IMG/VR virus record: IMGVR_UViG_3300030117_007501
Span: 94,283-158,282 of that record
Source: a virus
Direction: 5' to 3' (one strand)
DNA: 64,000 nucleotides
In this document: one piece after another, positions 6,017 through 57,651 of the stretch
How positions within the stretch are numbered: the stretch's first letter is position 1
Layout: every line of letters starts with the position of its first letter
Position numbers and translations under genes: made by a program
Notes under the pieces: model-generated
Seen by the model: only the letters and a program-made list of their open reading frames with translations
Database searches by the model: none
What the model was told of the DNA's origin: nothing

Positions 6017-6031
6017 AAATATAAGTTATTT

Positions 6032-6038: not shown

Positions 6039-6042
6039 CTGT

Positions 6043-6345
6043 ATGAGCAAATTAGACGACTACATAGAGAAAGCCACTTCAAACGTTACTGAAGATAGAG
6101 CAGCAACAAAAACACTTCTTGTGAATTTGCTAAAGTACATGCAAATATCTGACGATAGACACAAGGAAGTTGGCTTGATAGCTGCAAAGTATCTAGAAAC
6201 CCTGCAGAGATCAAATGAACAACTAGTAAAGCTAGCGAGCCTAGTTTCAAAGAAGGAGTCATCCATTCCCGGACTCACGGACGATGATAGGGAAGATTTG
6301 TTTGATATCATCAAAAACACAAACAAGAGTGGGGATACCGAATAA
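6043..6345 (+). CDS. Small helical protein, possibly terminase small subunit
   Basis: A 100-residue helical, soluble protein with a central pattern (about residues 18-68) of two helices ending AAKYLETLQRSNEQLVKLASL. This recalls the oligomerisation coiled coil of T4-type small terminases (gp16), but the similarity is weak and I cannot confirm it; the large terminase is 48 kb away, which is also not the usual arrangement. No Shine-Dalgarno site precedes the ATG; the upstream gap instead holds a candidate late promoter very close to the start. Its stop overlaps the next start (TAATG). Confidence 0.65.
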   Translation: MSKLDDYIEKATSNVTEDRAATKTLLVNLLKYMQISDDRHKEVGLIAAKYLETLQRSNEQLVKLASLVSKKESSIPGLTDDDREDLFDIIKNTNKSGDTE

Positions 6346-7556: not shown

Positions 7557-7567
7557 AAGAGGTTGAT

Positions 7568-25750: not shown

Positions 25751-28700
25751 TGTCAATTAAAAACCTTTTTGAAGAAAAATCAAAGATAGTAGCAAAGACT
25801 ACGGTAAAGGACTTGACTGAGAGTTTGGAGTCTGAGGACTACATCTTTGTTCGAGATAAGAAAATTAAAAGATTTCTTCCAACGGTAGATTATTCTAAAC
25901 CAGAGAATTTTGCTAGATACGGATTGGCAGAAAGATACTATACGGACTCTATAGAGAGAATATACCAAACTTATCCTTACGATGGGACGTTCTACGAAAA
26001 AGAAGCTTGGCACTTAAGTTCTTCATATTTAGATAATCACATATTTAGGGTTGACTACCCTAGAACAAATGGTTTTGCTCTCTTCTCTCCTTCGGGCTGG
26101 GGCACTCAATCCGCCAATCACGATAATTATGGACTGCCAAGTACTGCTGAGTATGTGTATATTAAGGGTGGGCCCCATGCAGATCCATATGGCGACATCA
26201 AGGGCGAAAACAGTCTGGCAAACATATATGATTCCGCCAGCTATAGAGAATCAAATCTTAAAATTGATGGCGCCACAGGTAATACTGTCGAGTTTTGGCT
26301 CAAAAAAGACGGATATGACACTTCGAAAACTAGATTAGAAGTCCTATTTGACGCTACTGTTTCGGGTTCAACGCCTGGAGACGCAGATTACGGAAGATTA
26401 AGAGTTACAATAGACAATAATCCAGCTAGTTCTGCTTTTTTGATAACATATCAATCAGGAAGTTTAGGGTTTATAGATACTGCGATAGGTGGATCCTCAA
26501 TAACCGAGGATACAATCGCAGACGGAAAGTGGCATCATTATGCTTTTACATTCAAACACAACCCTACAACTGAAAAAATTGACTCAAACCTGTACATAGA
26601 CGGTGCATATAACGCAACTGTTTCTGTTGCAGCTGCGACATTTGGAGCAATTGATGGCAACATAGTTGCAAATATCGCAGCACTTGTCGACTCTCCAACG
26701 GCAGCTAGCTCAGCTGGGCTTGGTTACGGAAAGTTGTCTGGTTCGATGGATGAATTTAGATTCTGGAAGGTAGAGAGGAATGCTAAGGAAATAGGAGAAA
26801 ACTGGTTAACAAATGTTGGCGGTGGAACAAACAAGTACGAACACAATACTAAGCTTGGCGTGTATTATAAGTTTAACGAAGGAATAACAACAGATGCAAC
26901 AACAGACTCGGTAGCTTTGGATTACTCTGGCAGAGTGTCAAACGGCTCATGGGTGGGGTACAGTTCTTCATCGAGAAACACCGGATCTGCCATGGTTGAC
27001 TCTGGTAACGCATTGAGGGAATTTCAAGATCCTATAATTTATAGCAATCATCCAGACGTTGTATCTCTTTTGGATGAAAAAAGACAACTAGGACAATCTC
27101 ATGATTATCAGAATACTTCTGCGCTATATTATTCTCTGCCAACTTGGATAATAGAAGAGCAGATGAACACCCATACGGAAGACAAGAGTACTCTTTCGGA
27201 TATGATGCAGATAATGGCTAGCTACTTTGATACATTGCATTTGCAAATAGAGGCTATCACGTCTCTGAAAGATGTTAGCTATAGGGATTACCCATCCCCA
27301 ACACACGTAAGTGGTTCGGATTTTGCACCATTCACAGAAAAACTATTAGAATCTAGTGGCTTCATTGCTCCGGATCTGTTCGCAGATGCCGAAGTGTTGG
27401 AAAAGTTTGGTACCAGAAACAAGGACGGACAGTTTGAATTTGAACTACATCAAGTTAAGAACTTCATATACAGAAACATATATAATAACCTTACAAACAT
27501 CTATAAATCAAAGGGTACTGAAAAGTCCTTCCGGAATCTTTTTAGATGTTTCGGGATAGACGAGGAACTTATTAAGCTAAATGTGTATGCGGATAATCAC
27601 ACTTACTCGTTTTCTGATACGTTTTTGCACAAATCTCATAAACAAAAGGTGGTGGATTTTAATTCTCCCGACAGATATGGGGCTACAATATTTCAGTCTG
27701 GCTCTTTAAATCCATATAGAGCACACTACATTTCAGGCTCTGGCACCACAGGGGAAACCGATGTATCAACAACTGTTGAAGCAGATATCTTCTTCCCCAG
27801 GAAGGAGAGGTATGGATCAAAGTATTTTCAAGAGACGGGATTCATCACATCTTCGTTGTTTGGCATCCACACCCCATCAACAATAGCGGGTGATATGACG
27901 TGGGCATCAAATGATTTCGCCAGCATCCAGGCTCATGTAGTGAGAACATCAGAGTATGAGTCGGATGCATATTTTATGCTAACGAGTTCAGCGGGTATAA
28001 TACCAGAGTTGACGTCACCTATAGTGCATGACGTCTATGGGGATAATAAGTGGAACATTTCCTTTAGAGTCAAGCCTGCACCTCACATGGCAGCATCCCC
28101 CAGTGGCTCTATGGATGGCTCTGTGGCTGCACAAGCCGCAGCCTTTGTTGTCGAATTTCGAGGAACAAGGTATATCCTAGATAGTCTCGAAGATAGCTTT
28201 CATGTAACTGGTGCAGTTTCGAGAACTAATGCTACAAGGCTTTGTTTTGCACCCAAGACATTGTATGCGGGGGCACACAGAGTAAACTACACAGGCTCAG
28301 TGTCGGAGTACTCGGATGTAAAGATATCGAATATACGATATTGGAATGCTTATTTGTCAAACGATGAGCTGGATTTTCACTCTAAAAATCCAGATAACTT
28401 CGGTAGAATGCACCCATCAAAGCCAGAGTATGTGAATAAGTCGGATATTCTTGATAGCAACTACAGGGAAACAGACACTCTCGCTCTACATTGGGATTTT
28501 GATAGAGTAACCACGTCAGATTCTTCAGGAGAATTTGTTGTAGTAGATGCCTCATCCGGCTCGGTTGGTGCTCTTAGCACTTTTGACGGCATGACAAAAA
28601 GACACCATGTTGGCGTCGGGTATGGATTTCCAACTAGCAGCACCTCGGTAGTATCGACTATGTGGACAGCGGGACTTCAACAAGCGCTACCAGAGAATGT

Positions 28701-31700
28701 TTATAGCTCAGACATGGTAAAGGCTTTGGATTCTGACAGTGAAGTGTTCAGATATGACTCGCGCCCAATAAACTACTTCTTTTCTTTCGAAAAGAGCATG
28801 TATCAGACTATTTCTGCAGAAATGCTTAAGTTCTTTGCAACAATAAAGGACTTTAACAACCTCATCGGAGAACCAGTAAATAAATACAGACAGAGCTACA
28901 AGGGCATGCAAAAGCTGAAAGAAATGTTCTTTAGGAGGGTGGATAACACTCCAGACATAGAGAAGTATGTGGAGTACTACAAGTGGTTCGACTCAGCCCT
29001 CTCCGTGATGATAGATCAGCTCAAGCCGGCAACTACTAGATTTTCTGAAGACATAAGAACGATGATAGAGAGTCACGTTCTGGAAAGAAACAAATACTGG
29101 ACTAAGTTTCCAACTATAGAGATGAAATCGGTAGATCCAATTGCCCAGCTACGCGGCGGTGCGGCAGAGCATAGAGGATTTCATTGGGGTAGAGATCATG
29201 CCCCGCTGCCCTCTAGCCCCAGAAAGGAGTCTGAAAATTGCTCATGGTGGGCGAATATGGCAGAGCGGACAACTACGGAGATATTCCGTGATGCTCACAT
29301 CTCTGATGAAGTCCGCGAAGCACGCGAAGCAATAAGAAGAATAAAGATTACAAAAGTTTCGGGCTCTTCGTACTATACCCGCGCTTTGTCTCACCCATAT
29401 GTTTTGGATATGAAGCGAGACAGGGTAATAGGTTCGATGGAGGAAAATAGAATACTTAATTTATATGCCATGGCATTGCGCCCTGGCACAACTTCCGGAT
29501 TGTCTATTGCAGCATCCAGTGTTCAAGAGTTTTTAGATTGTGATGATTCAACTCCGACAACCAAGAGGAGAATAAGAGCAGAAGCGGTATATTTGGGCGA
29601 TAATTCATATACTGACACTGGCACAGACTTGGCTCTGCCTTTTAGATTCTACAGTTCGTCCATCGGTGACGGGTATATATCTGGCTTGACAACGTTTAAG
29701 GCAGGAGTGTCAATAACAAATATTCATCATGATTCTTACAACAATGAAATAATAGCACCACTTCAGGGTGTCTATACATCTCAGCACGTTGGGGGGAATG
29801 CTAATAGGCATGTGAAGGCAGGAGAGACAGATCCCCAATTACGCCCAGAAACTTATAAGTTGCAGATTTCCTCGGGACAGATTGTACTAGTCCACCAAGG
29901 TTTCGAAACGCCGCGCACTTTTTGCGCCCGTGAAGGACTCGCAAAGCGTCCGGTAAACATAAGAAACATACAAACTACTACAAGTTCCGCTCATGTCGGG
30001 AACTATCAGTATGATTATGATATCGTGTTTACAGGCGGCAGGGCATCCAACAATAGAGATTTTATAAAGAATTCTGGCTACGCTGACTCAACATATAGTC
30101 CTGTGTCTTCTGAATTTTTTGATGACTTTGTTGATTTGCCAAAAATACAAAGAGAAAGAACAAATCACGTATTGGTGAATAGATTTTCATCCCCAGGAGG
30201 GCCCGAAACAGCAGGCGATGCTGATGGTGGACAGGGATTGGACAGAGAGACGTCAGAATTTTCAATATACAATTCTATGAACTATAGAAACTCTATAGTA
30301 AGAAGTGATTTGGATACCCTTTATGCAGAGCACTCTAACCAGTTTGGAGCTAGAAGCGGAAGCGTGCATATATCGAACACTTACGAATTTATGTCAGGAT
30401 CCGGTGCTGGGTACGCTTCAGTTCATATGACTAACAGAAACAGTGCCGCAAGAAAAGAGTCGGTGGGAACAGTTAATTTCAACACCAAAGCTGTTTTACT
30501 TGACGGCTCGACAGAATACTTGCGCTTAGATGCAGCAAGAGCAATATTCACAGATAATAATGAGATTTCTTTGTTTGCGTGGATAAAACACCCAACCGTA
30601 TCAAACGCGAATGCCCATGTTATATTCTCTATACATGATTCTTCGGGAGGAAATAGGCACCTATTTCTCTTAAGGGGTACCGCCGGCACAGACGGCACAC
30701 TTCAGTTTTACCAAAATTCCACTGGTTGGCAAAAGGTATCCAACACAAGGATAGACGATGACAAGTGGCACTTGGTTGGATTTGTATACGAGGGAACAGG
30801 AAATACTCTCAAGCTGTATTTGGATGGGGAATCTCAAGGGGATGCCTTGACGGTTACAAATATAGCATCCATAATGGCAGGCACAGACTTGGTAAGTATT
30901 GGCCAAGAGTGGGACGCCGGCCCAACGGCTAGTGACTTCTTTGATGGGCATATTGCAGATTTAGCAATATGGAACAAGTCGTTAACGCAAGCGCAAATTA
31001 GAGAAATCTATTCAGACGGCTTCTTTAAGGGCCCTCATGACTTGCTTAAGCACACTGCAAATGCAAACTTACAAGCATGGTACAGAATGGGAGACGGAGA
31101 TAATGGCTCTGGCACACCGGACAGCGCCGGAGGAACAATCTTTGACATGAGTGCAAACTCATACAATGCAACGCCAGTTTCGGGCCCGACTATTGTATCT
31201 GTCCCCTCTCTTCCGGGCGAGACTCACGTCATCGAAGATAGGCTCGAGAGGGATAACTTTTTCGTGCAACGTCCGATACCTAGAAACGAACTTCAATATT
31301 CATGGGTTACTGCATCCTCTATAGAGACTACCAGTAGTTTTCCTGGTTATGTACATGAGTTCTCGATACCTTCTGGAAATACTGACTCTGTATATCAGGA
31401 TGAAATTCGATTCTTAACAGCTAGTGAAAATAACGCAAACAATGACTTTGTTGGGTTGAATAGGATTATTAACAGAGCGTTAACATCCAGCACCAACACA
31501 ATCGGCAACAGTTTATCAACCACTGAAGGCTCTGTGAACGACATATTGCTTAACAGGCAGGGCCCTTACGGATGGCCATCATGGAAGCAGATGCGGGGAT
31601 CTGAACATCCCATAGCAAGATTGCATAGAAGAAACAACATAATATCAATACAGTCGCGAGATGGCACTCCAAACCAGAGAACCATGAATATCTATGATTG

Positions 31701-34700
31701 GCCACAAAAGATACCAGAAAATGTTTCTAGCACAAAAGATAGGGAAATCAATAATTTTTACGACACTCCGGTAAGTGCAAAATATAAGCCAGTTGAAATA
31801 GGGTTTGGAAATCTCAAGGGGCAAATACTAGGCACCCTCCAAGAGGAGATGGTAGATAATGTAGACTTGATGACAATAACTCCGGATGAAAATACTAGAA
31901 TATTCCACAGAGGAGAAAGAAATGTTGTTGCGAAGGTTAGCTATGGCAATGCAGCAACGTCCTTTGCAAACTCCGAAATCATAAAGCTACTAAGCATAGA
32001 GGAATGTAAAGAAGGAATATATCAGAATGCTCACGATATAATGGTTGATAATGGTATAATTCCGAACTCCATTGTATACAGCGAAGTTGTTTATCCTCGT
32101 GAGGATAACACCTTCACCAAGAAGGCAAGAACAAGGGTTAATTTCAATAATGACTTTTGGAGAGATTCGCACGCAGACAGAGTTGAAGAGCTTACATATG
32201 AATCTGGAAAGACAAACAGCTTCGGAATCTATAGAAGAACTAGCAAAGCATATTACATTTCAGCCAGCATGTGGCCGCTGGATGCTCGCACTGACTTCTC
32301 CAAAGTGCCTCCGACGATAGAACAGGGAGGGGCACTCAACTATAACAATTTTCATGATCAATTGGGGGTTAGTGGCTCTGGTGAGCTGCAGAATGATTAT
32401 AGTCTTTTCCATTCTGCAATGGAAGGGGCATCACTTCACCAATTGCAGATGGCTCCATTGTACAATAGGTTGATACCTCAAGAATATGATAATAAAGAAT
32501 ATTTAGCAGGACACTCCAAGTGGGAGACGGGAGAACAGTCTGGAAAGACTCCTTTTTATGATTCATACGAAAACTACAGAGAGGAGCTGAGAGCGGTAGG
32601 TAAGGAATATAGCTTAGTTCCGGAATTTAGAATGAGTGAGCATATGGAGTCGATAGTTTTGACAGGATCGAGTTTTAGTGCACCACTTGAATCATTTTTA
32701 ACTTTGACAGGCTCTTCGGTGGCTAATAGCAGCTTTTCAGCATTCTTTGAAACATATTCTAATACAGATTTTCTGAAATATTTTCAGGTGGTTCGGGATA
32801 TGTCATCGGAAGATATGGGCAAGGAACCATCAAAGATATGGCTTAAGTGCAATGCTTTATTGAAGTTTTTGCCATATGATGGCTTCTATCCAGCTCTCCG
32901 CACCCTGCAGATGGCGAAGATGTGGAACGACGACTACACAAGAGGAAATCTTTCCACAAACCTCTATACGAAAGTTAGACTAGAAGCCAACAGGAACCAT
33001 GCAGCTAAGCCTCTTTTCGCTCCTGGCATCTTGTTCAATTCTATTAAATCTGGTGTTGCCGTGGATTATCCTATCTTCAGGAATCCCGGCACTGGCAGCG
33101 TAAGAGATGAAGAATATCTTGCCGGCGTGGGTTATCAAAGTATAACAAAAAACACTGTGGCAGAAGCTATAGCAGCTGGAGGAACCCAAGGTTCAATACA
33201 GGGTAGGTTCCATCATACGGCGTCATTCAATGTCAGGCACGGCAGGTATGGACAGGGCGTAACAGGCTCCTGGGCAAATGGAACGGCGGATGAGAGCATA
33301 CCTAGACTCTCCTCTTCGACGTGCGTGAGAGTGCCCTTTGAGGCTATATTGTCACCCGACACCATGAGAGGTACAATATTGTATGACAATGAACCTCACC
33401 CTTCAGCCAGTATGATAGTGCCGTTTCTGCACCATAGTGCGTATGGAGTGGCAAAATATTATGACTTGCACCCCATATATGGATCGGTACTAACTGGATC
33501 AGAAGATACAGAAGATTTATATGAAAGCTTCATATATCGAACATTGACAGATATAGCTCACAAAAACGGCTTAACTCTGAAAGTGCAGAATGCCGACTTA
33601 TATTCGATGGCGGCTAATAATTTCTTCGCAGAGTCGATAAACTTTTTCCTTAAGGACTCATCAGTAAAATCATTTATATCAGAACCTGATACATACAATT
33701 TTACTGTTGGCAGAACATATGCTATGCGAATAACATTAGCTAACGAAAACGTAGTAATGTATGAAAACAGAGCAGCCTTTGGCCCTCCGGTGGACAACAG
33801 CTCTCCAGACAAAGGAACCTCTCATGGCTTTGCGCCATATTGTCCAGCATTTCAGCGTTACGATGACGAGGCGTATGTTGATTTGTCGTTTACTGCCACA
33901 AAGAGTTCTTATACTGTGGAGGAATTGTTTGCTGTGTTGGCGCCTTCTTACAGCGAAAACTCCAGACAGACTGGCTCGGCGTATCAACTTCTTACAGGAT
34001 CTTCCACAAATCAAGAATATCAGATGAGAATAAGCTCTTCTGTGAATTTGTTTGGCACCATTGAGGATTTAGACGTAGAGTACGATGCCAATGGAAACGT
34101 ACGAACTGCAAGAAGAGGTGCCAGCAACAAGAGAAAGAGGTGGGTAATTCAACCTAAGTGGGAATGTCCAATACTAGATTTTTCAGATAAGTCGATGACA
34201 GTGCTTAACTTGAATTCCGGACAAACAGAGACGCAGACAACAACTGGGTTTTTCGAAAATGCTAGCAATAATGAATACTTGATGTCATCAAGGGGTATGT
34301 GGCACCAGTATGGCACAGTTCCGGGAGAGTCTAGAGGAATTTTTCTAGGTATAAGTGACATTACTGGCTCTGAATCTCTCGCCGCAGCGGTAGGGTTCCC
34401 TCGTGGTAATCGCCAACGACTAGGGGAGCTTCCGGAAGATGGAGAAAGAGTAATATCAGAGGCTGTAGTCGCTATTCCATATTATGTTAAGAGATCAAAG
34501 GCGAACTTCTTTAAGCTCGACAGGCAGCAGGTAAAGAATGTCTTAAACAACACAAACCTTGAATCTGTCGATAATTCGATAAAGCACCAAATAGAGATGA
34601 TGAATCGCTATGTTTTCCCACCCCAAATGGACTTTGTTAACAACAGGCGTAAAACACCTATAGCGATGTACGTGTTCGAGTTCTCACACAAACTATCCAG

Positions 34701-35121
34701 AAAGGATGTGTCTGATATTTGGCAAAACTTGCCTCCGGATATTGGGACTCACGGCATAGGTTCACGCCCAGGTGATCCATTTGGTATGGGCAGCACAGAA
34801 GTGACAGTGGGGCACTCCCTCAAGAGTCCAGATGCGGACATAAAAGATCCTTTGGGTGGTGTCCTCCCAGATAAGTTGAGGTGGATGGTATTCAAAGTGA
34901 AGCGCCGCGCCAGTGCAAACTATTTTAAGAAGTTGTCTGACTCTCTGACGGGACACAAGCACGGGGGAATTTCAATATTCAACGAGAGCGAAAAGAGGCA
35001 GCTCGTTAGTTCTACGCTTGACGATTTGCAAAAGAGAGCGAAATATTCTTATAACTGGCCATATGATTTCTTTTCTCTCGTCGAGCTAATTAAAGTAACA
35101 GCAGAAGTCGAAATAGAGTGA
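25750..35121 (+). CDS. Giant virion protein (3123 residues) with LamG-like domains
   Basis: A 9.4 kb single frame. At least two and probably three concanavalin/LamG-like beta-sandwich domains are visible: about 170-350 (VEFWLKKDGY, WHHYAFTF, LYIDGAYN, MDEFRFWKV), a more divergent one at about 760-885 (WNISFRVKP, YSDVKISNIRYWNAYL), and about 1573-1757 (EISLFAWIKH, DDKWHLVGFVYEG, LKLYLDGE, IADLAIWNKSLTQAQIREIY). LamG domains usually bind carbohydrate or protein ligands. Between them are helical segments such as EMLKFFATIKDFNNLIGEPVNKYRQSYKGM. It follows the gp6-like and 887-residue proteins, so it is probably a baseplate-attached adsorption or fibre-hub protein. Start ATG overlaps the previous stop. 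Confidence 0.8.
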   Translation: MSIKNLFEEKSKIVAKTTVKDLTESLESEDYIFVRDKKIKRFLPTVDYSKPENFARYGLAERYYTDSIERIYQTYPYDGTFYEKEAWHLSSSYLDNHIFRVDYPRTNGFALFSPSGWGTQSANHDNYGLPSTAEYVYIKGGPHADPYGDIKGENSLANIYDSASYRESNLKIDGATGNTVEFWLKKDGYDTSKTRLEVLFDATVSGSTPGDADYGRLRVTIDNNPASSAFLITYQSGSLGFIDTAIGGSSITEDTIADGKWHHYAFTFKHNPTTEKIDSNLYIDGAYNATVSVAAATFGAIDGNIVANIAALVDSPTAASSAGLGYGKLSGSMDEFRFWKVERNAKEIGENWLTNVGGGTNKYEHNTKLGVYYKFNEGITTDATTDSVALDYSGRVSNGSWVGYSSSSRNTGSAMVDSGNALREFQDPIIYSNHPDVVSLLDEKRQLGQSHDYQNTSALYYSLPTWIIEEQMNTHTEDKSTLSDMMQIMASYFDTLHLQIEAITSLKDVSYRDYPSPTHVSGSDFAPFTEKLLESSGFIAPDLFADAEVLEKFGTRNKDGQFEFELHQVKNFIYRNIYNNLTNIYKSKGTEKSFRNLFRCFGIDEELIKLNVYADNHTYSFSDTFLHKSHKQKVVDFNSPDRYGATIFQSGSLNPYRAHYISGSGTTGETDVSTTVEADIFFPRKERYGSKYFQETGFITSSLFGIHTPSTIAGDMTWASNDFASIQAHVVRTSEYESDAYFMLTSSAGIIPELTSPIVHDVYGDNKWNISFRVKPAPHMAASPSGSMDGSVAAQAAAFVVEFRGTRYILDSLEDSFHVTGAVSRTNATRLCFAPKTLYAGAHRVNYTGSVSEYSDVKISNIRYWNAYLSNDELDFHSKNPDNFGRMHPSKPEYVNKSDILDSNYRETDTLALHWDFDRVTTSDSSGEFVVVDASSGSVGALSTFDGMTKRHHVGVGYGFPTSSTSVVSTMWTAGLQQALPENVYSSDMVKALDSDSEVFRYDSRPINYFFSFEKSMYQTISAEMLKFFATIKDFNNLIGEPVNKYRQSYKGMQKLKEMFFRRVDNTPDIEKYVEYYKWFDSALSVMIDQLKPATTRFSEDIRTMIESHVLERNKYWTKFPTIEMKSVDPIAQLRGGAAEHRGFHWGRDHAPLPSSPRKESENCSWWANMAERTTTEIFRDAHISDEVREAREAIRRIKITKVSGSSYYTRALSHPYVLDMKRDRVIGSMEENRILNLYAMALRPGTTSGLSIAASSVQEFLDCDDSTPTTKRRIRAEAVYLGDNSYTDTGTDLALPFRFYSSSIGDGYISGLTTFKAGVSITNIHHDSYNNEIIAPLQGVYTSQHVGGNANRHVKAGETDPQLRPETYKLQISSGQIVLVHQGFETPRTFCAREGLAKRPVNIRNIQTTTSSAHVGNYQYDYDIVFTGGRASNNRDFIKNSGYADSTYSPVSSEFFDDFVDLPKIQRERTNHVLVNRFSSPGGPETAGDADGGQGLDRETSEFSIYNSMNYRNSIVRSDLDTLYAEHSNQFGARSGSVHISNTYEFMSGSGAGYASVHMTNRNSAARKESVGTVNFNTKAVLLDGSTEYLRLDAARAIFTDNNEISLFAWIKHPTVSNANAHVIFSIHDSSGGNRHLFLLRGTAGTDGTLQFYQNSTGWQKVSNTRIDDDKWHLVGFVYEGTGNTLKLYLDGESQGDALTVTNIASIMAGTDLVSIGQEWDAGPTASDFFDGHIADLAIWNKSLTQAQIREIYSDGFFKGPHDLLKHTANANLQAWYRMGDGDNGSGTPDSAGGTIFDMSANSYNATPVSGPTIVSVPSLPGETHVIEDRLERDNFFVQRPIPRNELQYSWVTASSIETTSSFPGYVHEFSIPSGNTDSVYQDEIRFLTASENNANNDFVGLNRIINRALTSSTNTIGNSLSTTEGSVNDILLNRQGPYGWPSWKQMRGSEHPIARLHRRNNIISIQSRDGTPNQRTMNIYDWPQKIPENVSSTKDREINNFYDTPVSAKYKPVEIGFGNLKGQILGTLQEEMVDNVDLMTITPDENTRIFHRGERNVVAKVSYGNAATSFANSEIIKLLSIEECKEGIYQNAHDIMVDNGIIPNSIVYSEVVYPREDNTFTKKARTRVNFNNDFWRDSHADRVEELTYESGKTNSFGIYRRTSKAYYISASMWPLDARTDFSKVPPTIEQGGALNYNNFHDQLGVSGSGELQNDYSLFHSAMEGASLHQLQMAPLYNRLIPQEYDNKEYLAGHSKWETGEQSGKTPFYDSYENYREELRAVGKEYSLVPEFRMSEHMESIVLTGSSFSAPLESFLTLTGSSVANSSFSAFFETYSNTDFLKYFQVVRDMSSEDMGKEPSKIWLKCNALLKFLPYDGFYPALRTLQMAKMWNDDYTRGNLSTNLYTKVRLEANRNHAAKPLFAPGILFNSIKSGVAVDYPIFRNPGTGSVRDEEYLAGVGYQSITKNTVAEAIAAGGTQGSIQGRFHHTASFNVRHGRYGQGVTGSWANGTADESIPRLSSSTCVRVPFEAILSPDTMRGTILYDNEPHPSASMIVPFLHHSAYGVAKYYDLHPIYGSVLTGSEDTEDLYESFIYRTLTDIAHKNGLTLKVQNADLYSMAANNFFAESINFFLKDSSVKSFISEPDTYNFTVGRTYAMRITLANENVVMYENRAAFGPPVDNSSPDKGTSHGFAPYCPAFQRYDDEAYVDLSFTATKSSYTVEELFAVLAPSYSENSRQTGSAYQLLTGSSTNQEYQMRISSSVNLFGTIEDLDVEYDANGNVRTARRGASNKRKRWVIQPKWECPILDFSDKSMTVLNLNSGQTETQTTTGFFENASNNEYLMSSRGMWHQYGTVPGESRGIFLGISDITGSESLAAAVGFPRGNRQRLGELPEDGERVISEAVVAIPYYVKRSKANFFKLDRQQVKNVLNNTNLESVDNSIKHQIEMMNRYVFPPQMDFVNNRRKTPIAMYVFEFSHKLSRKDVSDIWQNLPPDIGTHGIGSRPGDPFGMGSTEVTVGHSLKSPDADIKDPLGGVLPDKLRWMVFKVKRRASANYFKKLSDSLTGHKHGGISIFNESEKRQLVSSTLDDLQKRAKYSYNWPYDFFSLVELIKVTAEVEIE

Positions 35122-46516: not shown

Positions 46517-47134
46517 GTGCGTGCCGAAAAGAAATATGAACTAATGTTGTTGAGATTGAGATACCTCAAGAAAGACTTGCAATTCGTCAAAGAAACAAAT
46601 GAAGAGGCACAGCAGGCATTCTCGCAAGCGTTCAAAGCTTTTGTAAAGTATTTACCAGAAGCTCAGAGAGAGTCCGTAGAGAAGATTGTAAAAAAAGAAA
46701 CCCCACCAAAAGAAACGGAAGAGAAAAAGAAAACAAAAAAGAAAACAAGAGCACCAGTGAAGACTGAAAAGAAAAAGCGCGAGGTGCAAAAACTCTTCAA
46801 GAAAGTGGCTAAGGACAGCCACCCTGATCGTATTATTGGATTAAGCGAAGAAGAACAGGAAAGGAAGAAGGAACTCTTCAAGGAAGCACAAGCCGCAGCA
46901 GATGAGTCTGATCTCTTTGATTTGATAGAGGTAGCGGAGAAGCTAGACATAGAAATACCAGAAGCTTCGGAGGAGAGTATAGAGTTGCTAAAGGAGTCTA
47001 TCGCAAAAATAAACGGAGAAATAAAAAAAATAAAACAATCTTTTGCGTGGGTGTGGTATCATGATCCTTCAAAACGAGACAAAATAATGAGGCAGTATAT
47101 TGGAAAGCTCAGACTTAGTAACCCTCGGACTTGA
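46517..47134 (+). CDS. J-domain (DnaJ-like) protein
   Basis: A 205-residue lysine- and glutamate-rich protein. Residues about 1-60 are helical, and 60-86 form a highly basic linker. Residues about 88-135 are a J-domain core: a helix QKLFKKVAKDS followed by the hallmark HPD (102-104), a loop and an EEEQERKKELFKEAQAA helix. The HPD motif is what J-proteins use to stimulate DnaK ATPase, so this protein probably recruits host Hsp70 for folding or for disassembling complexes. The C-terminus has SFAWVWYHD. A GTG start at 46517 gives the frame; ATG 46544 is an alternative. Its last 35 bases overlap the RuvC-like gene. Confidence 0.75.
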   Translation: MRAEKKYELMLLRLRYLKKDLQFVKETNEEAQQAFSQAFKAFVKYLPEAQRESVEKIVKKETPPKETEEKKKTKKKTRAPVKTEKKKREVQKLFKKVAKDSHPDRIIGLSEEEQERKKELFKEAQAAADESDLFDLIEVAEKLDIEIPEASEESIELLKESIAKINGEIKKIKQSFAWVWYHDPSKRDKIMRQYIGKLRLSNPRT

Positions 47135-47654
47135 CATTTCTACAAGCATAACGGGCGCTACGGTTCTTGATAAATCGGGCGAAATTTTATATAGCGAAGC
47201 GTGGGACACCAGAAACAAGAATAAGTTTTCAACTCTCTATGACAAAGCGCAGTTTGTTAAATGCAGGCTTTTGGAGTTGCAAGCCAGGTGGCAAATTAAA
47301 GAGATTTTTATTGAACAATCACTGCAGTCTTTTAGATCGGGATTCTCCTCTGCTCGAACTCTTTCGACTTTATCTAGATTTAACGGGATAATATCCTGGC
47401 TTTGTTACGACATCTTTCAAATAGAGCCTCAAATGATAGCTGCAGCATCTGCTAGAAAAAGAGCCGGGATAAAAATAGACAGAAGCAAAGATACGAAGGC
47501 TCAAATATTGCAGTTTTATCTTGACAAGAACCCCAACATTAAAGTAGAATATACACATAAAGGAAACCCAAAACCGAAATACAAAGACATAGCGGATAGT
47601 TGGGTTGTTGCAGTTGCGGGATTACAGATTTGTCAAGAAAAAAACATAAATTAG
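47100..47654 (+). CDS. RuvC-like Holliday junction resolvase
   Basis: A 184-residue RNase H-fold nuclease. The acidic residues are visible: D12 in LGLDISTSITGATVLD, E72 in IFIEQ, and D163/D166 in YKDIADSWVVAV. This is the pattern of RuvC and its phage/pox relatives, which resolve branched DNA during recombination or before packaging. The start is TTG: no ATG lies before the first catalytic motif, and GAGG is seven bases upstream. It overlaps the J-domain gene by 35 bases and the primase gene by about 25. In T4 this task falls to the unrelated endonuclease VII, so a RuvC-type enzyme is a replacement. Confidence 0.85.
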   Translation: MESSDLVTLGLDISTSITGATVLDKSGEILYSEAWDTRNKNKFSTLYDKAQFVKCRLLELQARWQIKEIFIEQSLQSFRSGFSSARTLSTLSRFNGIISWLCYDIFQIEPQMIAAASARKRAGIKIDRSKDTKAQILQFYLDKNPNIKVEYTHKGNPKPKYKDIADSWVVAVAGLQICQEKNIN

Positions 47655-48562
47655 TTTCTGATATACTCGGAAGAAGTTATCGGGTAAACGAAGAGTGTCT
47701 CTTCAAATGTCCGAAGTGCAAGCATTACAAAAACAAATTGTCAGTGAATTACGACAAGAACGTCTTTAAGTGCTGGGTGTGTGATTACTCAGGGAAAGAT
47801 ATTTTAAAACTAGTGCGCAAGTATGGCAGCTATAGCCAGAAGAGCGAGTGGTTAGAGTTGTCTGGCAAGGTTGACTTGAACGAGTTTGACAATCTTTTCG
47901 AAAAGGAAGAAGAGGAAGAATACGTTCAGCGCATTGAGTTGCCAAAAGAATTTATGACTTTAACATCTCGCAAGCCATCGCTAGCGTCTCTTCCGGCTTT
48001 AAATTACTTAAAAAAAAGAGGATACACTGCAGATGACATTTTGCGTTGGAAGGTGGGATATTGCCTACAGGGGGAGTACTCTAATCGTGTAATAATACCA
48101 TCCTTCGATGAAGAAGGTTATGTTAATTATTTTATCGCTCGGAGCTTCACTGAAGATTGGTATCGATACAAGAATCCTCCCGTTTCTCGAGATATTGTGT
48201 TTAACGAACTGTATATTGACTGGGGTGAAGACGTCGTTCTGACGGAGGGGATATTTGATGCGATGAAGGCTGGAAATGCTATACCCCTGTTGGGCTCAAC
48301 GTTGAACGAACGCTCACGACTGTTTCAGAGAATAGTCACGTATCAGCCAAACATATACATAGCTTTAGACTCAGACGCGGAGAAGAAGTCTTTAAGATTG
48401 ATTAAAAATCTGCTACAATATGACATAAGGGTTCGAAAGGTAGATATAAGTCCTTTCTCCGATGTTGCAGAGATGACAAAGGAAGAGTTTCAACAAAGAA
48501 AAGAGAAAGCATCTTTTGTTGAAGAAGGTGACTATTTATTATACCACGCTTTAAGCTTGTGA
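47630..48562 (+). CDS. DnaG-like DNA primase
   Basis: A protein of about 310 residues. An N-terminal zinc ribbon has C27/C30 (CPKC) and C48/C51 (CWVC). The catalytic core carries LKKRGYTADDILRWKVGY and RVIIPSFDEEGYVNYFIAR, followed by a TOPRIM domain with the glutamate of LTEGIFDAMK and the ALDSDAEKKS acidic motif. It makes RNA primers for lagging-strand synthesis. I see no helicase domain, so a separate helicase must lie elsewhere. The start is unclear: I prefer TTG 47630, which gives a natural SRKKHKLVSDILG N-terminus; TTG 47600 would add ten unlikely residues rich in cysteine. Confidence 0.85.
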   Translation: MSRKKHKLVSDILGRSYRVNEECLFKCPKCKHYKNKLSVNYDKNVFKCWVCDYSGKDILKLVRKYGSYSQKSEWLELSGKVDLNEFDNLFEKEEEEEYVQRIELPKEFMTLTSRKPSLASLPALNYLKKRGYTADDILRWKVGYCLQGEYSNRVIIPSFDEEGYVNYFIARSFTEDWYRYKNPPVSRDIVFNELYIDWGEDVVLTEGIFDAMKAGNAIPLLGSTLNERSRLFQRIVTYQPNIYIALDSDAEKKSLRLIKNLLQYDIRVRKVDISPFSDVAEMTKEEFQQRKEKASFVEEGDYLLYHALSL

Positions 48563-48571
48563 GGAGAGATT

Positions 48572-48754
48572 ATGCATATTACTAAAGAAAAACTAAAAAC
48601 ACTTATAAAAGAGGAGCTTATTCGCACAGCAGATATGCTAGCTCCAATAAACGAAAACCAGAAAGTTGCACTCGCCGCACTTACTGAATTGACGGATCAA
48701 GATGCCGCAACTGTTATAGCCATTTACGAGTCTATCGCAGCAGAAAAAAAATAA
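48572..48754 (+). CDS. Small helical protein, unknown
   Basis: A 60-residue protein beginning MHITKEKLKTLIKEEL, a helical opening I have seen on many small marine phage proteins, then an alanine-rich acidic helix. There is no metal site or membrane segment. A strong GAGGAGAG site precedes the ATG. It lies between the primase and a sigma70-type promoter. Function is unknown. Confidence 0.65.
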   Translation: MHITKEKLKTLIKEELIRTADMLAPINENQKVALAALTELTDQDAATVIAIYESIAAEKK

Positions 48755-48790: not shown

Positions 48791-48813
48791 ATAAAAGATA
48801 TACTGGAGGTATA

Positions 48814-51800
48814 ATGGCGTTTAAGATTGCGCATATTAGCGACGTACACATTAGGAATTATAGGTATCATGATGTGTATGAAGTAGTGTTTGAGAATTTA
48901 TATAAAATCCTAGAAGAAGAAAAGCCTGATATCATTATCAACACTGGAGACACTTGCCACACGAAGTTGCAAATTTCTCCTTCCTTTGTTGATGTGACAA
49001 GAAAGTTTTTCGAAAGACTGTCGGACATTGCTCCGCACCACGTCATATTGGGAAACCATGATTTAAATTTAAGAAACCCCAGCAAGATGGACGCCATCTC
49101 ACCGATAGTTTCTAGTTTAAAGCACCCAAATCTATACTTACACAAATACTCTGCGGAGGTTGAGGTTTCGCCTGGAATCTTCATAAATGTATTATCTGTG
49201 CTAGATAGGGAAAATTGGATAAAGCCGACAAATCAGGATGTGGTTAATATCGCTCTTTTTCATGGCTCTGTCGCTGGAGTAAAGACTGACACTGGATGGG
49301 TTATGGAGCACGGAGATATTGATATTTCCGAGTTTGAAGGATTCGACTATGTTATGCTTGGTGATATTCACAAAACTTTTCAAAAGCTAGATTCAGAGGG
49401 TAGGGTTTGTTATCCTGGATCTTTGATTCAGCAGAATCACGGCGAAACAAACGATAAGGGATTCTTGTTGTGGGAAATAGAGGACAAGGATAATTTTAGT
49501 TGTCGACATATAAAGATAGAAAACCCTAAGCCATTCGTCACAATCCAGTTGACTCCGAAGGGTAGAATTCCGAAAGGTACGAACATTAATCCTGGCGCCC
49601 GCTTGCGCCTCGTAACAAACAACAATCTTCCTCTCGACGCCCTTCGAAGAGCGGTGGATGTAGCAAAGCATCGCTTTAAGCCTGAGAGCGTAACTTTCTT
49701 AAACAGGGGAGCAGGAGCTTCCGTGTCGATGGATGACGCCACTAAGAACTTGGCTCAAGAGGATTTGCGGGACATAACAGTACAAGAAACTCTAATAAAA
49801 GAGTACTTAAAAGAACATCAGGTGGAAGACGACGTGATGCAGACTGTGCTCGATTTGAACCGACGCTACAATGCATCTATAACAGAGAGCGAAGAAGTAT
49901 CAAGAAATGTAAACTGGAACTTAAAGTCTGCCGAGTGGAGTAACCTGTTTAACTACGGTGAAGGAAACAAGATTGATTTTACAAAATTAAATGGCATAGT
50001 CGGAATATTCGGTAAGAATTATTCAGGCAAGTCATCACTGATTGATCAAATGTTGTACACCCTGTACAACTCTACGTCAAAAAACGTCCGAAAGAATCTG
50101 GATTTGATAAACCAGAACAAGGAGAAGGCGGAAGGTAAAGTTGTTATTACCGTGGGAGACAAAGATTATACAATTGAGAGGACTTCTGAAAAGTATACAA
50201 AAAGGCTTAAGGGCAAAGAAACTCTTGAGGCAAAGACAGATGTTGAGTTTTATACAACCGATTTGTTGGGTGAAGTGATAACTCTAACCGGCACAGCGAG
50301 AAGTGATACCGACAAAAACATCAGAAAAATATTTGGTACTTTGGATGATTTTCTTTTGACATCGATGGCTAGTCAGTTGGGCTCGCTATCTTTTGTCAAC
50401 GAGGGCTCCACAAAGAGGAAAGAAATATTAGCTAAGTTTCTGGATTTAGAGGTTTTCGAAAGAAAGTTCCGACTGGCAAAGGAGGACTCTCAAGAGACGA
50501 GAGCAATCTTAAACAGGCTAGAGGGGAGAGATTACCACAAGGAAATTACTGATATTGAGATAGAGTTAGAAAAAAGCAGAATTCTCACAGAAGAAAATAA
50601 GACTGTATGCGAGAATTATAGAGGGGAGATATCGGAAGCTTCAGAGGAGATAGATGCAATACAGGGCAATATCGACTCTGTACCAGCGGAGATTATAGAC
50701 ATTAGAACCCTCAAAGCTGACATGGAGAGCGCTGAGAGAGACATTTCTTTCTTGAATATTGAAAACGGGGAAATAGAAAATTCCCTATTGGAAAATCAGC
50801 TTTTATATAAAAAGATAGAGGATTTTCTAAATAATTATGACATTGAAGAGTGTATGCGTGATAGCGAAACAATCAAGCAAAAGAGGGAGGAACTAGACAA
50901 TGTTCTCTTGGCTATCAAAGAAGAAGAATCAAAACTTAGCACAAACAGAAGGAAAGTCACACTTCTCTCTGAAGTTCCTTGTGGTTCTGAGTTTTCTCAT
51001 TGTAAGTTTATTAGCGATGCATATGCTGCAAAAGACTTGGTTAAAGTATCAGAAAGAAATACACAGGAGAATGAGAGAGCGAGGAATACGTTAGAGCAAG
51101 AAATTGAGGACATGAATCCTGAACGTGTAGCAGAGCATCTAAACAAGTACAATCAAGTTCTAGAAAAGAAAAACAATGTAGCAAACAACATAAGCTCAGA
51201 ACAAATCAAATTTGAAAAGAACAAGACGAGTGTTTTGCAACTCGAGATTTCTTTAAAAGAAATGAAAAAGAAGGCGTTTGAGTATGAGGAAAACAAAGAG
51301 GCTATCGAGAATCTTGAAGGCTTAATCGATCATAGAAATAGATTAATCAAGTTTAAAGAAGAGCGACAGCATGCTCTAGAACAATGTCTTGAGGATACGG
51401 CGTCGCTTTATCGACAAAATGGCTCTCTCGAGGAGAAGTTAAATTCTCTAACAGAAAGCAGAGACACTCTAGAAAAAATGAGAGAAGAGTACTCTGCGTA
51501 TGATTTGCTTATGACGTGTTATCACTCTAATGGTATTTCGTATGATATTATCAAGAGGAGACTTCCCCTCATTAATGATGAGGTGGCAAAGATTTTGACA
51601 GATGTTGTTGAGTTCGAGGTTTTTATCGAGAATGAGGAAAAGAAGCTCGATATATTTATCAAGCACCCTAGGCACGATCCGCGGCCGCTGGAGCTTGGCT
51701 CTGGAGCTGAAAAAACCATTGCAGCAATGGCTATTCGTCTGGCTCTTTTGTCGGTGTCAAGCTTGCCGAAGCCGGATATCTTTATATTGGATGAGCCTGG

Positions 51801-51969
51801 TACCGCTCTAGATGAGGAAAATATGGAGGGTTTTGTCAGAATTCTGGATATGGTGAAGAATTATTTCAAGACAGTTGTTCTAATATCTCATTTGGATGCG
51901 CTGAAAGATTGTGTGGATTCTCAAATTTTGATAGAAAAGAGTGAAGGTTTTGCTCACGTTAATGTATAA
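48814..51969 (+). CDS. SbcD-SbcC (Mre11-Rad50, gp47-gp46) single-chain fusion
   Basis: A 1051-residue protein joining two normally separate subunits. Residues 1-330 are an Mre11/SbcD metallophosphoesterase: D10/H12 in ISDVHI, D46 in GDTCH, GNHD (80-83), FHGS and LGDIHK. Residues about 385-1051 are a Rad50/SbcC ATPase: Walker A GKNYSGKSS (about 400), a long coiled coil from about 560 to 940 interrupted by a cysteine pair in PCGSEFSHC (about 724-731), the signature LGSGAEKTIAAMAIRLAL (about 961), Walker B IFILDEPGTALDEE (about 989) and the switch histidine in ISHLD. It should process DNA ends for recombination-dependent replication. The open frame is continuous, so the fusion is real in this sequence. 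Confidence 0.9.
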   Translation: MAFKIAHISDVHIRNYRYHDVYEVVFENLYKILEEEKPDIIINTGDTCHTKLQISPSFVDVTRKFFERLSDIAPHHVILGNHDLNLRNPSKMDAISPIVSSLKHPNLYLHKYSAEVEVSPGIFINVLSVLDRENWIKPTNQDVVNIALFHGSVAGVKTDTGWVMEHGDIDISEFEGFDYVMLGDIHKTFQKLDSEGRVCYPGSLIQQNHGETNDKGFLLWEIEDKDNFSCRHIKIENPKPFVTIQLTPKGRIPKGTNINPGARLRLVTNNNLPLDALRRAVDVAKHRFKPESVTFLNRGAGASVSMDDATKNLAQEDLRDITVQETLIKEYLKEHQVEDDVMQTVLDLNRRYNASITESEEVSRNVNWNLKSAEWSNLFNYGEGNKIDFTKLNGIVGIFGKNYSGKSSLIDQMLYTLYNSTSKNVRKNLDLINQNKEKAEGKVVITVGDKDYTIERTSEKYTKRLKGKETLEAKTDVEFYTTDLLGEVITLTGTARSDTDKNIRKIFGTLDDFLLTSMASQLGSLSFVNEGSTKRKEILAKFLDLEVFERKFRLAKEDSQETRAILNRLEGRDYHKEITDIEIELEKSRILTEENKTVCENYRGEISEASEEIDAIQGNIDSVPAEIIDIRTLKADMESAERDISFLNIENGEIENSLLENQLLYKKIEDFLNNYDIEECMRDSETIKQKREELDNVLLAIKEEESKLSTNRRKVTLLSEVPCGSEFSHCKFISDAYAAKDLVKVSERNTQENERARNTLEQEIEDMNPERVAEHLNKYNQVLEKKNNVANNISSEQIKFEKNKTSVLQLEISLKEMKKKAFEYEENKEAIENLEGLIDHRNRLIKFKEERQHALEQCLEDTASLYRQNGSLEEKLNSLTESRDTLEKMREEYSAYDLLMTCYHSNGISYDIIKRRLPLINDEVAKILTDVVEFEVFIENEEKKLDIFIKHPRHDPRPLELGSGAEKTIAAMAIRLALLSVSSLPKPDIFILDEPGTALDEENMEGFVRILDMVKNYFKTVVLISHLDALKDCVDSQILIEKSEGFAHVNV

Positions 51970-54085: not shown

Positions 54086-55672
54086 ATGACATTTCGTTTG
54101 ACAAAAAAAGAAATGATGAAGGAGATTGTCAAGTGTGGCAAAGATCCCGTCTACTTTATAGATTCATATTCTAAAATAACACACCCCCAAGAAGGCTTGA
54201 TACCATTCAGGCTGTATGACTTTCAGAAAGATTTACTAAGAGACTATCAGGACGATAGATTTAACGTGATACTTAAGGCGCGACAGCTTGGAATATCAAC
54301 TGTTACTGCTTCTTATATCGTGTGGCTCATGCTGTTTCACAGAGAAAAGAATGTCTTGGTGGTTGCAACCAAGCTATCGGTTGCAGCAAACTTGGTAAAG
54401 AAAGTTAAATTAGCCATTAAGAATTTACCAGATTGGCTTAGAATAGCTAACGTAACAATCGACAACAGAAACTCTTTCGAGCTATCCAATGGATCCTTAA
54501 TAAAGGCATCATCCACCAGTGGCGATGCTGGACGTTCTGAAGCGCTTTCTTTGCTAGTTGTTGACGAGGCAGCGCACGTTGAAGGTATGGATGACTTGTG
54601 GACTGCTCTGTATTCAACACTGTCGACAGGTGGACGCTGTATTGCCCTGTCTTCTCCCAACGGCGTCGGAAACTGGTTTCATAAAACTTACACAGAAGCA
54701 GCAGAAGGGAGAAACGATTTTAAGCCAACTAGGTTAACGTGGGATGTGCACCCCGACAGGGATAAGAACTGGTACGAAAAAGAAACCAGAAATATGTCTC
54801 GACGCGACATAGCTCAGGAGTTGGAATGCAGCTTTAACATGTCGGGCGAAACCGTGTTTCATGGAGAAGACATCGATAGAATGTTGGAAAAAATATGTGA
54901 TCCGAAATACAAGACAGGGTTTGACAGAAACTTGTGGATATGGGAAGAATATCAGCAAGGCTCAAGTTATATTATTTCAGCTGATGTTGCGAGAGGTGAC
55001 GGCAAAGACTATTCTGTTTTCCATGTGATAAAACTAGAAACGATGGAAATTATAGCCGAATACCAAGGAAAGGTAACTCCTGACATATTCTCGAGAATTC
55101 TCTTCGACACGGGAAGAGAGTACGGCAATTGCATGTTAATAGTGGAAAATAATTCAGTCGGTTTTGCAGTGTTGGATAAGCTGGTGGAGAGTGGGTATCC
55201 AAATATTTATTATTCTATTAAGTCGACTCACGAATATGTTGATCAGTATGAAGCAGAGCTTCGAAGCAATTCGGTGCCTGGTTTTACGACGTCGATGAAA
55301 ACACGCCCTCTTATTATTGCAAAGATGGAAGAATTCGTAAGAAATAAACTAATTACCATATATTCTTCCAGGCTTTTTAACGAAATGAAAACATTTGTCT
55401 GGAATCACGGCCGCCCACAGGCTATGAGATCTTACAACGACGATCTAATAATGGCATGTGCGGTGGGTTGCTGGGTAAGAGACACGGCGCTAGTTGTCGA
55501 TAAAAAGGACATAGAGTATAAAAAAGCTATGATTGATTCAATGATAAGAACCAGCACAAAACTAAATACATCAATAAAGGGTATGCAGGGCTATAAAAGT
55601 AATGAAATATCTGATAGAATGAAGGAACACGCAAAGGCACAGATAGACTATCCGTGGTTGTTTAGGGGATAA
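54086..55672 (+). CDS. terL: Terminase large subunit, gp17-like
   Basis: A 528-residue DNA-packaging motor. The ATPase has a Walker A-like KARQLGIST (64-72), Walker B LLVVDE with D160-E161, and a coupling motif LSSPNGVGNWF (189-198). The RNase H-like nuclease has D300 in IISADVARGDGKDYS, E354 in LIVENNS and D452-D453 in YNDDLIMA. Domains, order and length match T4 gp17-type enzymes, which cut concatemeric DNA and pump it into the prohead. It sits three bases from its upstream neighbour and two before the portal gene. Confidence 0.95.
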   Translation: MTFRLTKKEMMKEIVKCGKDPVYFIDSYSKITHPQEGLIPFRLYDFQKDLLRDYQDDRFNVILKARQLGISTVTASYIVWLMLFHREKNVLVVATKLSVAANLVKKVKLAIKNLPDWLRIANVTIDNRNSFELSNGSLIKASSTSGDAGRSEALSLLVVDEAAHVEGMDDLWTALYSTLSTGGRCIALSSPNGVGNWFHKTYTEAAEGRNDFKPTRLTWDVHPDRDKNWYEKETRNMSRRDIAQELECSFNMSGETVFHGEDIDRMLEKICDPKYKTGFDRNLWIWEEYQQGSSYIISADVARGDGKDYSVFHVIKLETMEIIAEYQGKVTPDIFSRILFDTGREYGNCMLIVENNSVGFAVLDKLVESGYPNIYYSIKSTHEYVDQYEAELRSNSVPGFTTSMKTRPLIIAKMEEFVRNKLITIYSSRLFNEMKTFVWNHGRPQAMRSYNDDLIMACAVGCWVRDTALVVDKKDIEYKKAMIDSMIRTSTKLNTSIKGMQGYKSNEISDRMKEHAKAQIDYPWLFRG

Positions 55673-55674
55673 GA

Positions 55675-57651
55675 ATGGCAGACAAAAATAAGAATCCGAG
55701 AAATGCAGAAAACTTGTTGTTTAGAAGACTGACAAGGTTGCTTTCGGGCCCGTTAGTTAATTACAGGACTCAAACTGGCAGACGAATAAGAAGAATAGAT
55801 TTAGACAAATTCGCAGATAGATTCAAGTCTGCCTCCGGCCAACACTTTAAAAAGATGGCTTACGATCCATTCTCCAACTTGCAAGCCAATGTTATGGCAG
55901 GGCAGGCTAGAACCGAGAGATATGTTGATTTTGATCAGATGGAGTACACTCCAGAGATAGCATCCTCTTTAGATATCTATGCGGACGAGATGACTACCAG
56001 CAGCAAATTGCAGCCCCTAATTAGTATAGATTGCCCTAACGAAGAGATTAAGCAGCTCTTAAATTCTCTGTATTATAACATCATAAATGTTGAATTCAAT
56101 TTGTTTGGATGGAGTCGGACTATGTGCAAGTACGGAGATATGTTTCTGTATTTGGATATAGATGAAGATAGGGGAATTCAATCTGTTATTGGATTGCCGA
56201 CTGCCGAAATGGAAAGACTGGAAGGCGAAGACAAGACAAATCCAAATTATGTTCAGTTTCAGTGGAATTCTGCAGGAATGACTTTTGAAAACTGGCAAGT
56301 TGCACACTTCAGAATACTAGGCAACGACAAGTATGCGCCATACGGCACAGCTGTTTTGGAGCCTGCCAGAAGAATATGGCGACAGTTGACTTTGCTTGAA
56401 GATGCTATGATGGCATATCGTATTGTCCGATCACCAGAAAGAAGGGTGTTTTACGTTGATGTCGGAAACATTCCTCCAAATGACGTCGAGCAGTTCATGC
56501 AAAAGATAATGACTCAAATGAAGAGGCATCAGGTTGTCGATCCAGACACAGGGCGTGTGGATTTGAGATATAACCCTCTCTCTATCGACGAAGACTATTT
56601 TATTCCTATTCGAGGCGGACAGTCCTCGCGAGTGGAAAATTTGCCAGGCGGACAATACACCGGAGATATCGACGATGTGAAGTATCTCAGAGACAAGTTG
56701 TTCTCCGCTCTTAAGGTGCCCCAGTCTTACCTCTCTCGCGGAGAAGGCTCAGAAGAAGATAAAACAACTTTGGCACAGAAAGATATTCGCTTTGCTCGTA
56801 CAATACAGCGCCTGCAGAGATCTTTGATAACTGAGCTTGAGAAGATTGGCATAATACACTTGTATGTGCTGGGTTTCCGAGAAGACGACTTGGTATCTTT
56901 TAAATTGGCTTTGAATAACCCGTCTAAGCTTGCAGAGCTTCAGGAGCTGGAGCATTGGAAGACAAAGTTTGACACAGCCTCGTCAGCTACTGAGGGATTC
57001 TTCAGTAAGCGTTGGTTGGCGAAGAAGATGTTTGGCATGACAGACGAAGAGTTCATGAGAAACCAAAGAGAAATGTTCTACGACAGGAAGTTCGAAGCTA
57101 CCTTGGAGGTTGTCGGTGAAGCAGAGCAGGCATCCGTTGCAGGTGAAGCGCCTCCCGCCGCAGGCGGAGATATACTGGGCGGCGAGCCTCTCCCCGGAGA
57201 AGAAGAAGGTGGAGAGGTTGATTTACCCGGCGCCGAAGCAGATACGGGGGCACCTGAAGTTGAGCCCGGTGACGAGCCTGCTGCAGAGGGCGAGGAAGAC
57301 GTCCTCTTAGCAACTCCGGGAAAGAGAAAAGACAAAGCACCAAGAATCACACCTGGCGCAAAAGGAAAGGTATATACCCCAGTTGATGTCGATAAACGTC
57401 AATCTGCCGGCAGAGGGAAGCAAATGAAAGGATCGTGGAATCACGAAACTTCGCGAAACACAACTAGGAATATTTCTCCCGGCTCGTCTGATCTACTGGG
57501 GCTAGGAAGAGGAATTTACGAGGAAGTAGAGAAAGTGAACTCTAATTATAAAGAGGAAGAGAAAAGATTATTCGAAGTTAACAAAGACATTAAACGGTTA
57601 ATATCAGGACTAGGACTGAGGGAAGAAAAAGATGAGACTAAAGCACAATAA
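55675..57651 (+). CDS. Portal protein, gp20-like
   Basis: A 658-residue portal vertex protein. Recognisable segments are YDPFSNLQANVMAGQARTER, YTPEIASSLDIYADEMTT, the FYVDVGNIPPNDVEQFMQKI stem region and KVPQSYLSRGEGSEEDKTTLAQKDIRFARTI. Unlike T4 gp20 (about 520 residues) it has a C-terminal extension of about 160 residues: a low-complexity acidic Gly/Glu/Pro/Ala stretch at about 480-545, then a basic segment and a final helix. The DNA of the acidic stretch is locally GC-rich. The final 20 bases overlap the next gene. Confidence 0.93.
   Translation: MADKNKNPRNAENLLFRRLTRLLSGPLVNYRTQTGRRIRRIDLDKFADRFKSASGQHFKKMAYDPFSNLQANVMAGQARTERYVDFDQMEYTPEIASSLDIYADEMTTSSKLQPLISIDCPNEEIKQLLNSLYYNIINVEFNLFGWSRTMCKYGDMFLYLDIDEDRGIQSVIGLPTAEMERLEGEDKTNPNYVQFQWNSAGMTFENWQVAHFRILGNDKYAPYGTAVLEPARRIWRQLTLLEDAMMAYRIVRSPERRVFYVDVGNIPPNDVEQFMQKIMTQMKRHQVVDPDTGRVDLRYNPLSIDEDYFIPIRGGQSSRVENLPGGQYTGDIDDVKYLRDKLFSALKVPQSYLSRGEGSEEDKTTLAQKDIRFARTIQRLQRSLITELEKIGIIHLYVLGFREDDLVSFKLALNNPSKLAELQELEHWKTKFDTASSATEGFFSKRWLAKKMFGMTDEEFMRNQREMFYDRKFEATLEVVGEAEQASVAGEAPPAAGGDILGGEPLPGEEEGGEVDLPGAEADTGAPEVEPGDEPAAEGEEDVLLATPGKRKDKAPRITPGAKGKVYTPVDVDKRQSAGRGKQMKGSWNHETSRNTTRNISPGSSDLLGLGRGIYEEVEKVNSNYKEEEKRLFEVNKDIKRLISGLGLREEKDETKAQ

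Follow-up and report, generated by a model that had tools for sequence, protein, structure and literature searches.

The window, the whole 64,000-nucleotide stretch of virus DNA analysed here, carries on its + strand a gene (48,814–51,969) that joins an Mre11 (SbcD)-like nuclease to a Rad50 (SbcC)-like ATPase in one reading frame. We estimate at about 85% the probability that this gene is a phage Mre11/Rad50 fusion of the R555-like family whose product acts as a self-contained end-processing homodimer for UvsX-driven recombination-dependent replication. The fusion is kept across a deep phage clade, and in this large, mostly aquatic phage group it is the normal form.

Domain Organization of the Fused Protein

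The frame starts with ATG and encodes 1051 amino acids without an internal stop. A canonical GGAGG ribosome-binding-site-like region (48,799–48,813) lies 7 nt 5' of the ATG, and the fusion, its parts and the four neighbouring genes named below (resolvase, primase, terminase and portal) are all on the + strand. Pfam places Metallophos at residues 3–187 (E = 2e-12), AAA_23 at 377–587 (8e-9) and SMC_N at 377–1026, PHROG_77 (SbcC) matches residues 305–1049 (6e-56), and the PDB matches are to Mre11/SbcD in the N-terminal part and to Rad50 and SbcC at the C-terminal lobe.

The nuclease domain (residues 1–235; 48,814–49,518), delimited by the Pfam match, invariant alignment columns and the secondary structure of the model, is a calcineurin-like phosphoesterase with the DxH, GD, GNHD, H and H motifs of SbcD/Mre11, here DVH (10–12), GDTCH (45–49), GNHD (80–83), H150 and GDIH (183–186). 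It is followed by a capping domain (approximately residues 236–319; 49,519–49,770), supported by model strands and a helix at residues 241–297 and by structure matches to SbcD nuclease and capping domains, and by a Rad50-binding helix-loop-helix (approximately residues 320–359; 49,771–49,890) with model helices at 321–331 and 339–359 and the conserved pattern LRD..VQE.LI.EYL...LN.KYN in the fusion-family alignment. The linker EEVSRNVN (residues 360–367 in model numbering; 49,891–49,914) then precedes W368 and the first ATPase strand.

The second half has the split ABC head of SbcC/Rad50, joined via a coiled coil. The N-lobe (residues 368–570; 49,915–50,523), which contains the AAA_23 match, carries the Walker A motif GKNYSGKS (400–407) with invariant G405 and K406. 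The coiled coil (approximately residues 571–880; 50,524–51,453) consists of long helices in the model and is a fast-diverging region; its tip, CGSEFSHC (50,980–51,003), forms a CX6C hook (C723, C730) in an apex loop between model helices 677–720 and 731–766. The C-lobe (residues 881–1051; 51,454–51,966), defined by PDB Rad50 matches at 923–1050 and invariant columns, contains the signature SGAE (963–966), Walker B ILDEP (991–995) and the H-loop SH (1025–1026). The catalytic motifs are thus all intact, and they are near-invariant among relatives. Judged by the sequence of its head domains, the protein is homologous to SbcC/Rad50, with a variant tip.

Integrity of the Reading Frame

Could a sequencing or assembly error have fused two genes? 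We found nothing in favour of such an artefact and consider its probability negligible because independent relatives keep the fusion without gaps. A contig from a different assembly (IMGVR_UViG_3300007511_000064) encodes a protein with 89% amino acid identity that aligns gap-free across all 1051 codons. The two genes differ at dN values of 0.060 (nuclease), 0.056 (linker) and 0.054 (ATPase N-lobe), and their synonymous sites are nearly saturated; the linker has changes at 3 of 55.8 nonsynonymous and 10 of 13.2 synonymous sites. These values point to purifying selection that extends through the linker. Furthermore, about 165 distinct fetched phage proteins retain the same fusion, as does the isolated phage Mel-JY01, and nearly all of the complete relatives that we fetched are single uninterrupted frames. 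The first-pass annotation, which had read the gene as a single SbcD-SbcC polypeptide of 1051 residues, was therefore borne out by the open reading frame, the Pfam and PHROG domains and the gap-free relative, and no stop or frameshift was found at the junction between the halves in this relative or in the other fetched ones.

Three relatives have interrupted copies, and in none of them is the gene split at the Mre11/Rad50 junction. One (L034) has a single in-frame stop at residue 199 in an otherwise intact frame, and another (L193) has a frameshift near residue 198; both lie in the loop after motif V and are probably sequencing errors or recent losses. In a 484-kb phage (LR756508.1; fused gene at 3944–8169), an inserted ORF (4665–5582) with a TnsA-like endonuclease domain interrupts the gene just after GDIHK and leaves two frames, an arrangement that resembles genes split by mobile endonucleases. 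An intron in LR756508 was considered and rejected, as Rfam gave no match at the gathering score and the other matches were at chance level. An intein in two further relatives (L159 and L160), whose matches span ~4.1 kb, was likewise rejected; these are ordinary fusion frames of 1065–1069 aa.

Membership of the R555-like Family

Fusions of Mre11 and Rad50 were described in 2011 by Yoshida, Claverie and Ogata in Mimivirus (R555), bacteria, plasmids, eukaryotes and the Bacillus phage 0305phi8-36 (PMC3175470). R555-like sequences outnumbered all other Mimivirus-like genes in aquatic metagenomes and were enriched in viral size fractions. Their scaffolds carried a primase and other phage genes, and the authors suggested that some come from phages (PMC3175470). 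The gene studied here is therefore not new in kind, and the earlier view that the fusion is unusual did not hold, as it belongs to a described family (PMC3175470) and is the rule in this phage group. Our literature search on this phage form, Mel-JY01 and the CX6C hook found only that paper.

R555 deviates from canonical Mre11 at two positions, the third Asp of motif II being replaced by His and the residue equivalent to Pf His206 by Asp (PMC3175470). The window protein has the same two deviations, GDTCH and GDIH versus the usual GDxxD and GHxH, and in the family alignment H49 is found in 156 and D184 in all of the 169 rows. It likewise has the Mre11-like N-terminus and Rad50-like C-terminus in one frame, together with the capping domain, the helix-loop-helix and a linker (about 8 residues, compared with ~9–12 in the family description). 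Among viral proteins, the best fold matches over the full length are repair proteins of giant viruses related to Mimivirus (Tupanvirus, Harvfovirus and Yasminevirus), together with the long repair proteins of Tenacibaculum phages PTm1 and pT24. Because the window protein shares both R555 motif changes and matches giant-virus fusions best in fold over its full length, the assignment to the family is firm, with R555 itself compared by its published description. By that description, R555 has the same domain order, retained helix-loop-helix region and GDxxH and GDxH motifs (PMC3175470), whereas it is a 1351-aa protein with a long coiled coil and the window protein has 1051 aa and resides in a tailed-phage genome.

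The two replaced metal-site residues could alter metal binding or activity. As they differ from canonical Mre11 and are fixed family-wide, and were noted for R555 too, one may ask whether the protein performs a task other than that of SbcCD, such as nicking or acting as a structural bridge, its nuclease being weakened. We think this rather improbable: the remaining metal ligands (D10, H12, D46, N81, H82, H150 and H186) are invariant or nearly so in the family alignment, and lost catalysis would predict some relatives with dead active sites.

Distribution and Comparison with Split Pairs

The first-pass annotation had proposed a search for related phage fusions, and scans of IMG/VR with protein and alignment queries returned at least 584 relatives. 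The fusion is also found in uncultured phage genomes of 484 kb and 735 kb. In the isolated Microcystis phage Mel-JY01, the protein WWT39521.1 ('AAA domain containing protein') is a full-length fusion with 30% identity over 100% of the query, and the gene order is the same (primase, small ORF, fusion); unlike the window protein, it has a canonical CXXC hook, and its phage is a fresh-water cyanophage.

In a tree of the nuclease and ATPase lobes, the 36 fused main-group rows group together on one branch (SH-aLRT 100), separate from the T4-like, T5-like, SPO1-like and cellular split pairs. T4 gp47/gp46, also a phage nuclease/ATPase pair for recombination-dependent replication, is encoded by two genes with two small ORFs between them, has a CPTC hook, is distant in sequence and lies outside the fused clade. 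The window gene, in contrast, is one frame, with one match per half in the record; no second SbcC or metallophosphatase match was found in the 158,282 bases of this record, which is possibly a fragment. E. coli SbcD/SbcC has homologous halves and the same fold but is encoded by two overlapping genes and has a longer coil and canonical motifs.

Two other phage fusions also differ. The phiLo_161 protein (866 aa) of Thermus phage phiLo combines nuclease and ATPase in one frame but is placed on a very long branch beyond the main fused clade. Its fusion may have arisen independently, although the length of the branches makes this uncertain; scanning viral contigs with it found no relatives. The fusion of Bacillus phage 0305phi8-36 (A7KV18) likewise has nuclease and ATPase in one frame but is reported to be without one P-loop segment and without the capping and helix-loop-helix region (PMC3175470).

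Relatives in GTDB are mostly on short contigs of metagenome-assembled genomes and are probably misbinned phage DNA. In a WOR-3 bacterium 'chromosome' assembly (CP070664.1; L206, 7959–10,052), there is a truncated fused frame of 698 aa with 57% identity to the window protein over residues 3–628, which we attribute to a phage insertion or misassembly.

Genome Context

The genome that carries the fusion is plainly that of a tailed phage. Upstream of the fusion lie a RuvC-like resolvase gene (47,100–47,654), a conserved neighbour in 85 relatives' loci, and a primase-like gene (phrog_47, partial DnaG type; 47,600–48,562), present on the same strand in 122 relatives' loci and also in Mel-JY01. Downstream are the T4-type terminase large subunit (54,086–55,672; 89 relatives' loci) and a T4-type portal protein (55,675–57,651; 60 relatives' loci), both identified by Pfam and PHROG matches. 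Between the primase and the fusion, a 60-aa ORF (48,572–48,754) starts with MHITKEKLKTLIKEEL; we found a single copy of this motif in the stretches of the genome that we read, and 22 of 167 loci from relatives have an IKEE-like motif 5' of the fusion.

The record also encodes UvsX/RecA, a 5'-3' exonuclease, a DnaB-like helicase, a ribonucleotide reductase, which is of the B12 type (L218, 3623–5491), and its own PolIII alpha with a PHP domain (L218, 14,036–17,479). Further genes of the record encode a Cpn60-type chaperonin and Hsp70 (L219, 4285–5862 and 10,250–12,205). Two adjoining proteins of 747 and 418 aa (L218, 8358–11,859) contain repeated Cu-binding MopE motifs, which are unusual in a phage, and the window has two giant ORFs, one of 4029 aa at 8739–20,828 and one of 3123 aa at 25,750–35,121. 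An adenylosuccinate-synthetase-like protein (L221, 6243–7241) matches phrog_1211 (PurZ-type); we rejected its identification as a Z-genome PurZ because it retains the QYGD Asp.

The Joint between the Two Halves

The AlphaFold model, built with 46 sequences, has a mean pLDDT of 76.8 and a pTM of 0.40, with pLDDT below 50 in the Walker A region. This moderate quality is too weak for geometry, and the dimer assembly set out below is therefore a proposal. The order in the model is nuclease, capping domain, the two helices (321–331 and 339–359) and the first Rad50 strand at residue 368, and the linker length of ~8 residues is read from the end of the helix at 359 and the start of this strand. The fold matches are to Mre11/SbcD (7dog, 3tho_B and 6s6v_A) and to the Mre11-Rad50-Nbs1 complex (7zr1). 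In 166 of the 169 alignment rows, the stretch 353–368 is 15–16 residues long, and R364 (157 rows), N365 (166) and W368 (163) are nearly fixed. This conservation of length and residues suggests that the joint is under constraint and does not act as a loose tether.

An internal start or processing could in principle yield separate Rad50 chains alongside the fusion, and the window gene does have an in-frame ATG at codon 342 with a purine-rich stretch upstream. However, this start is unconserved among relatives, and a ribosome-binding site with a start occurs at the junction in 11 of 169 rows compared with 3–14 of 169 rows for stretches elsewhere in the gene, so that no conserved internal site was found there among the 169 rows. 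The short linker of near-constant length also argues against separate chains, which we regard as very improbable.

Variation of the Coiled-Coil Tip

The CXXC hook is usual, although not universal, in SbcC/Rad50, and the window protein has CX6C instead. Among 162 complete proteins, 105 have CX6C, 8 have CX7C, 46 have CXXC and 3 have other tips. When the coil is left out, well-supported branches of a FastTree tree force at least nine changes involving CXXC. All of the split phage SbcCs that we examined have CXXC, except that of Moorella.

A pair of close relatives illustrates such a change. The heads of L047 (CX6C) and L081 (CXXC) are 97% identical in protein and mostly 78–97% identical in DNA, whereas at residues 601–800 the DNA identity drops to 44–59%. 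In this region, L047 is closer to L030 (56–65% in DNA) than to L081, whereas at residues 1–50 its DNA is 97% identical to that of L081 and 76% to that of L030. Such a pattern resembles mosaic exchange involving the coil and hook. Relatives with hook switches also include L041 and L050.

Because CX6C or CX7C and CXXC alternate repeatedly between phages with heads up to 97% identical, the coiled-coil tip might be an exchangeable specificity cassette, with hook swaps deciding which nuclease molecules join. We offer this as speculation and think it unlikely. If true, hook swaps could separate the complexes of co-infecting phages or evade an inhibitor.

Proposed Function and Implications

In T4, gp46/gp47 process DNA ends for recombination-dependent replication. 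The separate Mre11-Rad50 complex is M2R2, that is, already 1:1, and its subunits are tethered via the helix-loop-helix of Mre11. Consequently, the proposal that fusion fixes a 1:1 ratio and, by tethering the nuclease to the ATPase, may alter the geometry of the complex was not supported; the fused protein retains the helix-loop-helix (residues 321–359) and a short linker of near-constant length, and little change through fusion is visible at the sequence level. Structural arguments made for R555 agree, as the C-terminus of Mre11 lies ~28 Å from the N-terminus of Rad50, so that the fusion mimics and is compatible with the normal complex (PMC3175470).

By analogy with T4 and SbcCD (partly after PMC3175470), from which activity, stoichiometry and role are all drawn, the fused protein is most likely a homodimeric end-processing nuclease that supplies the UvsX-like recombinase. 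Two copies would pair via their nuclease domains and ATP-bound heads into a counterpart of M2R2, a homodimer in which every helix-loop-helix clamps in cis onto the coiled coil of the same chain. By binding and hydrolysing ATP, the protein would control when DNA ends reach the manganese nuclease, and, like T4 gp46/gp47, it would trim or resect ends and hairpins to serve recombination-dependent replication driven by UvsX. The main benefit of the fusion would then probably be the co-expression, co-assembly and co-transfer of both halves.

These results give the R555-like fusions of the 2011 aquatic metagenomes a definite home, as complete single-copy genes of large tailed phages. Their position near primase, resolvase, terminase and portal genes supports the suspicion of the 2011 authors that they are largely of phage origin. 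Furthermore, should the hook variation hold for the proteins themselves, it would offer a natural series for testing zinc hook function, and a one-chain Mre11-Rad50 of 1051 aa is now available for structural and mechanistic work.
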